Shown here piece by piece: positions 35,560-40,028 of a DNA stretch of 64,000 nt. Made by a program: the position numbers and the translations under genes. The stretch is from Erythrobacter sp. YJ-T3-07. GTDB taxonomy: Bacteria > Pseudomonadota > Alphaproteobacteria > Sphingomonadales > Sphingomonadaceae. Positions within the stretch are counted from its first letter, which is position 1; the number at the start of each line of letters is the position of its first letter. The stretch spans positions 2,941,001-3,005,000 of the forward strand of contig NZ_JAEAGP010000001.1 in assembly GCF_015999305.1 (NCBI RefSeq), written 5' to 3'. The notes under the pieces were generated by a model. That model ran no database searches. It worked only from the letters and a program-made list of their open reading frames with translations, and was not told where the DNA came from.

Positions 35560-36747
35560 TCAGTCGTTGTTCTTGGAAGCCCACTTGCGGCGGGTGATGA
35601 CCGCCAGGGCGGCCGCACCGAACAGCAGGCCGACCGGCGGCGCCGGAACCGGATGCCCGCTGCTGCCCGATCCGCCGGTGCTGCTCCAGCCGGAGGAGCT
35701 GGGCGGGTGGCCCGAGGTCGAGACATCGCCCGAAGACGAACTGGAAACGTCGCCCGAGGACGAGCTCGAGACGTCGCCCGACGAAGAGCTCGACACGTCG
35801 CCCGAAGATGAGCTGGATACGTCGCCCGAGGACGAACTCGAGACGTCGCCCGACGAGGAGCTCGACACGTCGCCGGAGCTGCTGCTGGACACATCGCCCG
35901 ACGACGAGCTGGAAACGTCGCCCGAGGACGAGGTGGACGAACTGCTCGAGACGTCCCCCGAAGACGAGGTCGACGAACTGCTCGAGACATCGCCCGAGGT
36001 CGAGCTGCTGCTGGAGACGTCGCCCGAGCTCGTGGTGGTCGAGGTGAGCCCGCCCGTCGAGGTCGAGGTCGATCCCCCCGAGGTCGAGGTGGAGGTCGAT
36101 CCGCCCGAAGTCGAGGTAGAGGTCGATGCGCCCACATCGATGTCGATGTCGATACCCCCGGTCGTGCCCGATGACCCGACTCCGCCGGTCGTGGTGCTGA
36201 TCGAGATGTTGCCGCCGCTGCCGCCGCCACCGAAGAAGCCGCCGAAGAAGCCGCCACCGAAACCGCCGCCGCCGCCGCCGCCACCGGCGACCGCCACACC
36301 GCCGCCCTGGCCACCGCCGCCGCCGACGAAACCGCCGCCGACCGGCAGCGCCGCAGGCGCAACCGCAACCACCGTGCGCGAGGCACCATCGCCGTATTGG
36401 GCGCAGGCGTCCGCCGCAGCGGCAAGATCCCGGTCGTCATAGGAATAGCTGCCGCGCGCATCATAGACGATCTTCTCGCCCGCCCCGACGCCCGACCCGC
36501 CTGCCAGGCTTTCCGGCACGCATTCGACCGTGCGCCGCACGACGCGCCGCTTGCGAAGCGTGGTGCGCGGCACCTCGCGTTCGACCACGCGGTCTTCCTT
36601 GACGTAGCGAAGCGCCGGAGTGTCCTTGACCGACTTGTAATCGGTGGTGCCGACCTGTTCCTCGGCCACATGGAGCGCGCCGCCGGCAATGACGGCGGTG
36701 CCCGCAGCGGCTGCGGAGAGTTTTGCGAGGGCGATCTTTATAGACAT
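35560..36747 (-). CDS. Repeat-rich exported surface protein with PEP-CTERM-like tail
   Basis: About 395 residues. There is a signal-like N-terminus (KIALAKLSAAAAGTAVIAGG), a charged region with VEREVPRTTLRKRRVVRR, a Gly-rich stretch (near FGGGFFGGFFGGGGSGG), Thr/Ser repeats (STSTSTSGG) and then a long array of SSGDVSSSS units. The C-terminus is VPAPPVGLLFGAAALAV followed by basic residues, which resembles PEP-CTERM sorting tails: a short motif, a membrane helix and a basic end. The start at 36747 is chosen because the signal region follows; 36834 is also open. The function is unknown; a cell-surface or matrix role is inferred. Confidence 0.75.
   Translation of the reverse strand: MSIKIALAKLSAAAAGTAVIAGGALHVAEEQVGTTDYKSVKDTPALRYVKEDRVVEREVPRTTLRKRRVVRRTVECVPESLAGGSGVGAGEKIVYDARGSYSYDDRDLAAAADACAQYGDGASRTVVAVAPAALPVGGGFVGGGGGQGGGVAVAGGGGGGGGFGGGFFGGFFGGGGSGGNISISTTTGGVGSSGTTGGIDIDIDVGASTSTSTSGGSTSTSTSGGSTSTSTGGLTSTTTSSGDVSSSSSTSGDVSSSSSTSSSGDVSSSSSTSSSGDVSSSSSGDVSSSSSGDVSSSSSGDVSSSSSGDVSSSSSGDVSSSSSGDVSSSSSGDVSSSSSGDVSTSGHPPSSSGWSSTGGSGSSGHPVPAPPVGLLFGAAALAVITRRKWASKNND
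35717..36060 (-). repeat. Tandem low-complexity repeat encoding SSGDVSSS units
   Basis: A run of imperfect units of 21-33 bp, each reading (S)nGDVSSS on the minus strand and built on GACGTxTCGAGCTCGTC-type steps. The unit number is likely to vary by slippage or recombination between strains. On the plus strand the same run encodes the misleading frame DTSPEDELET repeated. Confidence 0.85.
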
Positions 36748-36975
36748 AATGCCAGGCTCTTTAAGTTGGAGCGCTTTATAAACTGTTGCCGTCGGCGGTT
36801 CCGACGGGCGGAGTGAAAGTGCGCCTGTATGCATTAGGCGCTGCTGGTCGCAGCGATCGCAATGCAGTTAACCACGAAAATGCGGTTTTACCGGTCCAAT
36901 ATCAAAGACATTGCCGATCGGCGTGCCCACCTGTCCCATGCTGGCACCGCGGTATGGAGAGTGGTTACGCGCGAC

Positions 36976-38004
<1,029 letters not shown>

Positions 38005-38017
38005 GAAGGCTCCATAA

Positions 38018-38048
38018 CGTCATGCTGAACTTGTTTCAGCATCCAGCC
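38018..38048 (+). repeat. REP-like hairpin, left copy
   Basis: TGCTGAA/TTCAGCA (38023-38029 and 38035-38041) around the 5-nt loop CTTGT, flanked by CGTCA and TCCAGCC. Inverted relative to the copy at 38391-38421. The ATG inside it (38022) opens a frame into the GIY-YIG gene. Confidence 0.9.
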
Positions 38049-38066
38049 AACGGCAGTCTCCACCTC

Positions 38067-38402
38067 ATGCTGATCGAGAAGCAGCCCTGCGTCTACATCC
38101 TCGCGAGCAAGCCCTTCGGCACGCTCTACATCGGCGTAACCTCCGATCTGCTCGCCCGCCTGTGGCAGCATCGCGAGGGTGCGGTCGAGGGGTTCACCAA
38201 AAGCTACGCCGTGCATCGGCTGGCCCACTTCGAATTGTTCGACACGATGGAATCGGCGATCAAGCGCGAGAAGCAGCTCAAGAACTGGCACCGCGACTGG
38301 AAGCTCAATCTCATTACTCGCGAAAATCCAGACTGGCGCGATCTTGCGGTCGGTTTGGGCTTAGAGCCGATGTCTCCGGACGGGCGGCAGGCTGGACCCT
38401 GA
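38067..38402 (+). CDS. GIY-YIG domain nuclease
   Basis: A single-domain GIY-YIG endonuclease of 111 residues (126 if read from ATG 38022 inside the hairpin). VYIL (9-12) and LYIGVT (20-25) form the GIY and YIG strands, Arg31 follows in LLARLWQHREG, and Glu69 in KREKQLKNW is the expected metal-binding glutamate. Domains this size occur as stand-alone enzymes related to UvrC and homing endonucleases. The gene lies between two inverted hairpins, and the last residues and stop come from the right hairpin. It interrupts the ruvA-ruvB region on the opposite strand. The biological target is unknown. Confidence 0.88.
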   Translation: MLIEKQPCVYILASKPFGTLYIGVTSDLLARLWQHREGAVEGFTKSYAVHRLAHFELFDTMESAIKREKQLKNWHRDWKLNLITRENPDWRDLAVGLGLEPMSPDGRQAGP

Positions 38403-38421
38403 AACAAGTTCAGGGTGACGG
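38391..38421 (-). repeat. REP-like hairpin, right copy (inverted)
   Basis: CCCTGAA/TTCAGGG (38397-38403 and 38409-38415) around the loop ACAAG, the exact complement of the left loop. Read on the minus strand it matches the left copy in CGTCA, the core TGAACTTGTTTCA and TCCAGCC; only the three outer pairs of the stem differ, TGC/GCA against CCC/GGG. It contains the TGA stop of the GIY-YIG gene (38400-38402). Confidence 0.9.
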
Positions 38422-38587: not shown

Positions 38588-39124
38588 TCAAAACGGGTTC
38601 ACCGTATAGCCCTGCTGCTGGAGCAGCGCGTGGGCTGTCATGGCGGAGAGGGCCAGTACCACGCCGGGGATGAGCTCGGACTTCGCCACGCCCTGCCCCG
38701 CAGCGCTCTGGCCGCAGACGATGAAGCGCACGCCCTGGTCGATCATCTCGCGTACCGCGGCGCCCGAGGGGTTAGTCTCGCCGCGATCGCGGGCGGACCA
38801 GGCAGCGTCGGTCAGCAGGTCGAAGACCGCAGGCCCGTGGACGACCACCGCCGCGCGGTTCTCCATCGGCGCAACCCCTGCGCGCGCGTGCATGTTGATG
38901 AGCCGCGCCGCGCTCTCGAAGCCGCGGTTGAGCTTGCCCTCCTCGGCAGCGCGCGACACGTCGAACGCGACGTGGAAGCTCGCGTCTTCGGGAATGGCGA
39001 AGTCGGCATCGGGCACGTCGGCAACGGGGCCGAACTCGGTGAACACCGGCCCGTAGGAAACCTCCTGCGCCGCCGCAGGTGCGCCGATCGCCAGCGCTAC
39101 AGCCGCCATCAGTATCACTCGCAT
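38588..39124 (-). CDS. Exported DsrE/DsrF-like protein
   Basis: About 178 residues. There is a signal peptide (VILMAAVALAIGAPAAAQ) and a DsrE-like fold with HVAFDVSRAAEEG, RAAVVVHGPAVFDLL and FIVCGQSAAGQG. The Cys in the last motif is at the position DsrE-like sulfur carriers use, but the periplasmic location is unlike sulfur-relay DsrE. ATG 39124 is chosen because GGGAG lies 6 nt upstream. It begins 11 nt after the ruvA stop on the same strand and so is probably in its operon. The function is unknown. Confidence 0.82.
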   Translation of the reverse strand: MRVILMAAVALAIGAPAAAQEVSYGPVFTEFGPVADVPDADFAIPEDASFHVAFDVSRAAEEGKLNRGFESAARLINMHARAGVAPMENRAAVVVHGPAVFDLLTDAAWSARDRGETNPSGAAVREMIDQGVRFIVCGQSAAGQGVAKSELIPGVVLALSAMTAHALLQQQGYTVNPF

Positions 39125-39135
39125 AGCCATCTCCC

Positions 39136-39735
39136 TCACCCCGCAGCCTTCTTCAGCGCCACGCGGATCAGCTCGCCCTCGCTTGCGCCTTCGCCCAGTT
39201 CGCCCATCGCCTCGGCCACAGCCTTGGCCGCGATCGCGGGCTTGAAGCCGAGGTTCTCCAGCGCGGAGACCGCATCAGCGCTCGCCCCGCCCTTCGGAGC
39301 GGCGATCGCCACCCCGCCCGGCGCCACGGGCAGCGCGCCCGCCTTGTCCTGCAACTCGTTGACGATCCGGCCCGCCAGCTTGGGCCCCACGCCGTTCGCC
39401 CGCGCGACCATCGCCGCGTCGCCATTCGCACACGCCGCCTGCACCTCGCCCGCCGACAGGACCGAGAGGATCGCCAGCGCGACCTTGCTGCCCACGCCCT
39501 GCACCGATGTGAGCAGGCGGAACCAGTCGCGCTCTGCCGCTTCGGCGAACCCGAGCAGCCGCATGTCGTTCTCGCTCACCTGAAGATCGGTGAACAGCCG
39601 CGCCTTGCCGCCCTCGCTGCCCAGCGCGTCGAGCGTGCGGGTGGAGCAGTGGACAAGGTAGCCCACCCCGCCCACGTCGATCACCGCCCAGTCGGGGCCG
39701 GTCGCGTCGAGCGTTCCTGTGAGCTTTGCAATCAT
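39136..39735 (-). CDS. ruvA: Holliday junction DNA helicase subunit
   Basis: Tetrameric protein that binds the four-way junction and loads RuvB. The protein has 199 residues: N-terminal OB fold ([21 protein letters not shown]), two helix-hairpin-helix motifs ([16 protein letters not shown] and [16 protein letters not shown]), and the flexible C-terminal RuvB-binding domain ending [10 protein letters not shown]. The start at 39735 is the conserved M-I-A. No ruvC lies immediately upstream in the window; aroC is the divergent neighbour. Confidence 0.97.
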
Positions 39736-40028
39736 GGTTTGTTCCTGCCCTACTCCGACCCGCATTGCCAGCGCTGCGAGCGGATTTGCCACATCGGCGC
39801 AGCGGGCCTGATACACCTGACACACTGTCCAGAGGCGCAAACCGCATCGATCAACGGGGCACCACTAATCGAGCGAAGCGATTACGCGAGCAGGCGACGC
39901 TTCCCGACGATGGCAAAGAGCAGCGCGCACTTTACCGCAGGCCGCGCGAGTAGGAAAATTCACGCGGTGTGACACTCACCATGACAGGGCGTGGACAGGC
40001 ACCGCCGGTTGCGGCAACGCTTGCCGTC

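Follow-up and report, generated by a model that had tools for sequence, protein, structure and literature searches.

Why is a small nuclease gene enclosed by two inverted hairpins within the ruv region of Erythrobacter sp. YJ-T3-07, and do gene and hairpins belong together? The window, i.e. the whole 64,000-nucleotide stretch of DNA analysed here, carries at 38067 to 38402 of the forward strand a small GIY-YIG gene of 111 amino acids, which is of the Ssn type by homology and context. A sequence-only reading had described this gene as framed by two inverted hairpins, and the description is borne out: the left hairpin (38018 to 38046, forward strand, TGC type) and the inverted right one (38392 to 38420, reverse strand, CCC type) are 29 nt each and equal at 25 of 29 positions. 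The unit also separates ruvA from ruvB as that reading had stated. On the reverse strand, ruvB (36976 to 38004) is the neighbour on one side and ruvA (39136 to 39840) on the other, and both the GIY-YIG gene and a DsrE-like ORF (38588 to 39139, reverse strand, between the unit and ruvA) lie in between. A long low-complexity ORF without a Pfam match occupies 35560 to 36834 of the reverse strand; inspection by eye shows GDVSSSSS-like repeat units and, towards the C terminus, a hydrophobic stretch.

The hairpins reach into the gene at both ends. The ATG at 38022, supplied by the left hairpin, is in frame and would extend the protein to 126 amino acids, but as a conserved start it does not hold, being found in only 17 of the 50 TGAAC-bracketed relatives in which the upstream core was found (a set with a few near-duplicates). 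Translation more probably begins at the ATG at 38067, which lies ahead of the conserved part. The proposal that the downstream hairpin provides the stop codon (38400 to 38402) fares better, since the same arrangement recurs in 31 of the 44 relatives with a downstream core found, again including a few near-duplicates.

The protein between the hairpins matches the GIY-YIG domain (PF01541, E 1e-14). Across 12 homologues, the invariant positions include Y21, R31 and E68, which we take to be the catalytic residues. No named NCBIfam family could be assigned, as there was no match above the cut-off; an anti-phage defence gene was rejected, the single PADLOC match being weak (E 0.006), and an intron GIY-YIG homing endonuclease was set aside on anatomy alone. 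Four small GIY-YIG genes were found in this genome, each bracketed by a different type of inverted palindrome. A small GIY-YIG gene elsewhere in the genome (L012, C1:804519-804740) contains an in-frame TAG and looks broken, with both palindromes kept.

Both hairpins fold with an unpaired 4-nt CGTC tag, an 8-bp stem, a 5-nt loop and a CCA tail, and they occur in multiple copies, mainly as head-to-head dimers and mainly as heterodimers. They thereby fit the published CGTC-tagged REPs, in particular the CGTC-2 make-up, for which head-to-head dimers and heterodimers were likewise described (Di Nocera et al. 2013, PMC3733652). The resemblance extends to truB and tRNA synthetase genes as insertion sites, reported there for genomes including Erythrobacter litoralis and S. 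alaskensis and seen here as well. In the same survey, the Neisseria dRS3 repeat is identical with CGTC-1, and the CGTC-2 repeats of N. aromaticivorans form homodimers only (PMC3733652). The CGTC REPs are presented in that paper without a dedicated transposase, and the term 'GIY-YIG' is absent from its main text, whereas we propose a GIY-YIG partner here. An Rfam RNA element was rejected for the hairpins, as one tRNA was the only hit in the window at the gathering threshold.

The repeat is dispersed. The 13-nt hairpin core has nine exact matches in the genome (reversed control, 0), and the 29-mer has 21 if up to three mismatches are allowed (control, 0); at two mismatches or fewer, 20 hairpin copies were counted in this genome and 126 in 10 genus genomes, with none in the control. 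The genus copies form 54 pairs, every one convergent, and 18 copies are unpaired by this pattern. Spacing is mostly about 62 bp: 46 pairs lie 60 to 65 bp apart and two others 75 and 115 bp, respectively, while the six GIY-YIG units at ruvB all have a spacing of exactly 374 bp. The other 48 pairs lie away from a GIY-YIG gene. REP pairs also sit in frame within truB and within cysS (cysteinyl-tRNA synthetase). Two of the paralogues likewise have dispersed palindrome types, each with three additional copies in a 464-kb sample of this genome; the L013 type was not found at all in that sample. By eye, insertions of tens of bases are seen inside a REP hairpin downstream of 1513 at L005 and in the cysS of G001 (L304).

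The left and right hairpins had been said to differ in three stem pairs with both halves changed together. The compensation is confirmed for every differing pair, but these number two, T-A to C-G and G-C to C-G from left to right. This difference is the standing two-type make-up of REP pairs and not a local event. All 47 close genus pairs (80 bp or less) combine two different stem types, as do 24 of 25 close pairs from other genera among the matches listed, whereas wider pairs are heterotypic in 6 of 7 cases in the genus and in 2 of 7 in other genera among the matches listed. Among those listed matches, the dependence of heterotypy on spacing outside the genus gives a Fisher p of 6e-4, for pairs drawn from seven family genomes as convergent neighbours only, with most unpaired matches left out. 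Within the genus alone, heterotypy has no clear dependence on spacing; many genus REP pairs are probably shared by descent.

Folding energies suggest what the two types may achieve. In eight pairs of this genome, a forced arm-to-arm hairpin reaches -6 to -20 kcal/mol with the natural arms and -33 to -38 kcal/mol with arms of the same type, and the two local hairpins together give -12 to -16 kcal/mol, although with natural arms the minimum-energy fold of five of these eight still contains arm-to-arm pairs. A combination of two stem types in a close pair would thus weaken the arm-to-arm hairpin and keep the local hairpins competitive, and the near-universal heterotypy of close pairs fits the avoidance of one long hairpin. 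The 2013 survey had already described heterodimers, suggested that they may be protective, and reported families that form homodimers only (PMC3733652). What the present work adds to that account is that heterotypy depends on spacing, as judged on few long pairs. A REP pair in another genome (G131:C2:545672-545760) has mismatches in each stem (ATGC/GGAT and ATCC/GCAT), a pattern that inversion of the spacer by recombination inside the hairpin cores would produce.

Is the nuclease gene associated with the palindromes more often than chance allows? The sequence-only reading had asked this of the whole genome, and hairpins do occur genome-wide, yet small GIY-YIG genes are enclosed by inverted copies far more often than control positions are. 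From 48 GIY-YIG matches in the genus, 10 UvrC-like ones were left out; 36 of the 38 loci examined lie between inverted palindromes at a score of at least 14, and 32 of 38 at a score of at least 18. The corresponding control, random positions from 400 kb of this one genome and not other short ORFs, gave 19 of 3,775 and 0 of 3,775, respectively. The four UvrC loci examined all score 9. Across the order, with listed frames of at least 506 amino acids (UvrC-like) left out, 54 of 92 loci in 60 genomes reach 14 among the matches listed. The remaining 38 of these listed loci fall below 14; 25 of them belong to three tree groups of unbracketed genes, and the others are interspersed on the tree.

Palindrome type follows the nuclease clade. 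On a tree of 186 nuclease domains, 137 of them with a hairpin label, the label changes 25 times, compared with 77 on average and never fewer than 70 in 200 shuffles. The TGAAC type alone changes six times (shuffled mean, 41), and the bracketed or unbracketed state 23 times (shuffled mean, 44). This is a fast tree from 99 columns with 85 of 182 inner branches open, and the labels come from our own regular expressions, by which 10 of the 137 labelled domains are 'other' and 49 of the 186 are unlabelled. At 60% protein identity or more, the TGAAC core occurs on both flanks in 37 of 55 loci, on one flank in 6 and on neither in 12 (a few are single-genome duplicates), and by the core regular expression on both flanks in 2 of 19 loci at 55-60% and in 9 of 80 below 55%. 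Two loci at or above 60% (L233, L237) carry another palindrome in place of the TGAAC core, and in three more (L296, L299, L301) a palindrome was looked for and none was found.

Repeat and nuclease also co-occur across the family. All 30 genomes with a homologue of at least 60% identity hold the repeat (median, 16 copies), versus 29 of 89 without a close homologue (Fisher p 5e-12), and 10 of those 29 have a homologue of intermediate similarity. At three or more copies, the numbers are 27 of 30 versus 21 of 89; in this sample of 119 family genomes, copies at the gene itself were counted. Both the tree and the co-occurrence tests are inflated because the gene is inherited vertically together with its flanks; genomes are not independent. 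One family genome (G128) holds 245 TGAAC hairpin copies, against the median of 16 in genomes with a close nuclease homologue.

The nuclease-palindrome association is retained over phyla. Eighteen loci not named as Sphingomonadales (L074-L091; KSB1, Ignavibacteria, Bacteroidota, Parcubacteria and others) were retrieved by peptide patterns and not by hairpins. TGAAC-type arms lie on both sides in 11 of the 18, at 41-59% protein identity, and at least three of these 11 (L077, L084, L091) have a varied second arm. L074 and L079 carry other palindromes, and L078, L081, L082 and L090 score below 14.

A further connection leads to Neisseria, whose dRS3 repeat has the pattern ATTCCC(N8)GGGAAT (PMC3898611). 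Among the matches listed, six order loci have palindromes of the dRS3 pattern on both sides. Within a dRS3 array of Neisseria gonorrhoeae, inverted copies of CCGTCATTCCCGCGCAGGCGGGAATC flank a homologue that matches 79% of the query at 64% identity; the record containing it is classed as a plasmid, yet is 2.17 Mb long. Four of the five other plasmid-collection loci (Azospirillum, Aeromonas, Sinorhizobium and Novosphingobium) reach a score of 14, and the fifth, from Photobacterium, scores 8 with dRS3-pattern palindromes on one side. Ssn nucleases and NTS repeats of Neisseria meningitidis are reportedly the subject of a study by Chenal et al. (Nat Commun 2025), and the Neisseria Ssn nuclease is said to cut its own repeat in single-stranded DNA and to affect transformation. 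We infer that the gonococcal gene is the Ssn gene and that NTS and dRS3 are the same repeat.

Taken together, the locus is very probably an Ssn-type site-specific single-stranded DNA GIY-YIG nuclease paired with its cognate REPs. The protein has the GIY-YIG domain and is homologous to the Neisseria protein, and its gene is flanked by its own dispersed repeat. By analogy with the Neisseria enzyme, the nuclease would recognise the hairpin repeat that brackets its own gene and is scattered over the genome, and would bind and nick it when it becomes single-stranded during uptake, replication or repair; the bracketing hairpins themselves are thus putative cleavage sites. Such nicking would steer how DNA bounded by REPs recombines and, in the long run, how the REPs spread and are kept up. 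Like the gonococcal gene among its dispersed palindromic repeats of the dRS3 pattern, the gene described here encodes a small homologous GIY-YIG protein; it differs in the hairpin core (TGAACTTGTTTCA), in having mostly single REP pairs with no large arrays seen, in the presence of four nuclease-palindrome pairs in one genome, and in the position of the unit between ruvB and ruvA.

The original suggestion of a mobile or self-maintaining unit resembling RAYT/REP systems stands for the pairing of a nuclease with its cognate palindrome; mobility is a possibility that the locus comparisons only suggest. In REPtrons (TnpA-REP), too, the enzyme gene is bracketed by a palindrome thought to be its substrate, the pairs are type-specific, and orphan repeats lie elsewhere. 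The enzyme there is a tyrosine HUH transposase acting with GTAG-tagged repeats, in contrast to the GIY-YIG nuclease and CGTC tag found here.

An autonomous element, a GIY-YIG 'REPtron' whose nuclease excises or copies the DNA between inverted REPs and whose short pairs are non-autonomous offspring, is the strongest alternative, although we consider it rather unlikely. Its appeal lies in the patchy occupation of sites. Twelve of 38 ruvB loci of the family carry the nuclease gene, and all 12 have the flanking hairpins; when the loci without the gene were compared, as the sequence-only reading had suggested, 23 of 26 had no core (up to two mismatches) in the 600-bp upstream flank of ruvB. The other three (L122, L123, L170) retain a core though the gene is absent from the fetched flank, and in the L123 genome the gene lies 1.6 kb away, outside that flank. 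Where a family genome has a close homologue and its ruvB position is known, which applies to 14 genomes, the gene is beside ruvB in seven, within 2 kb in one and elsewhere in six, four of these on another contig. The gene is thus at ruvB, absent, or elsewhere depending on the genome, and therefore the unit looks inherited at ruvB in some lineages only. Similarly, the cysS REP pair is present in three and absent from six of nine aligned genus genomes (the tenth, G004, was missed by the anchor), and hairpin numbers within the genus are 7-20 in genomes that have the gene versus 3-10 in those without it (one-sided p 0.02, six versus four genomes).

What speaks against such an element is that neither a target-site duplication nor an excision product nor a recent copy was seen. 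Sites without the gene were found, but at both ruvB and cysS the flanks are too diverged to define boundaries, and a target-site duplication from the cysS alignment was rejected for the same divergence. The spacers of eight short pairs have a mean similarity of 0.478, hardly above the 0.446 of shuffled spacers, and therefore are not recent copies of one unit; being mutually unrelated, they also led us to reject the idea that short pairs arose from the gene unit by internal deletion, with gene-end similarity judged by eye. Matches were absent from 50,697 phage records and present in 33 of 72,556 plasmid records, some of them chromosome-sized.

It is improbable that REPs simply gather near dispensable genes and that GIY-YIG genes merely tolerate them. 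The 48 of 54 genus pairs away from these genes and the copies within cysS and truB are in keeping with such hitch-hiking, but control positions, random and from one genome, rarely fall between inverted palindromes, and palindrome type tracks the nuclease tree and is often kept in other phyla. Least probable of all is that the hairpins simply terminate transcription of the nuclease gene or affect the stability of its mRNA, which would suit a possible action in RNA and the 31 of 44 relatives with a stop codon inside the downstream hairpin, but leaves unexplained the matching upstream copy, the genome dispersal, the insertions within the cysS and truB reading frames and the nuclease-specific types.

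If the Ssn-type pairing is extended beyond this locus, GIY-YIG nucleases could be the missing enzymes of the whole CGTC-REP superfamily, with each clade recognising, maintaining and spreading its own REP type. The CGTC REPs would then be a second REP system alongside RAYT/GTAG, one that has no transposase and whose structural signature is the stem heterodimer in close pairs; we put this forward tentatively, at somewhat less than even confidence. The 2013 REP survey left the enzyme for the CGTC class open (PMC3733652). The pairing described here names a testable candidate enzyme for each REP type, connects the repeats of Sphingomonadales with the dRS3 repeats of Neisseria, and offers many natural nuclease-hairpin pairs for the study of site recognition by small GIY-YIG proteins.
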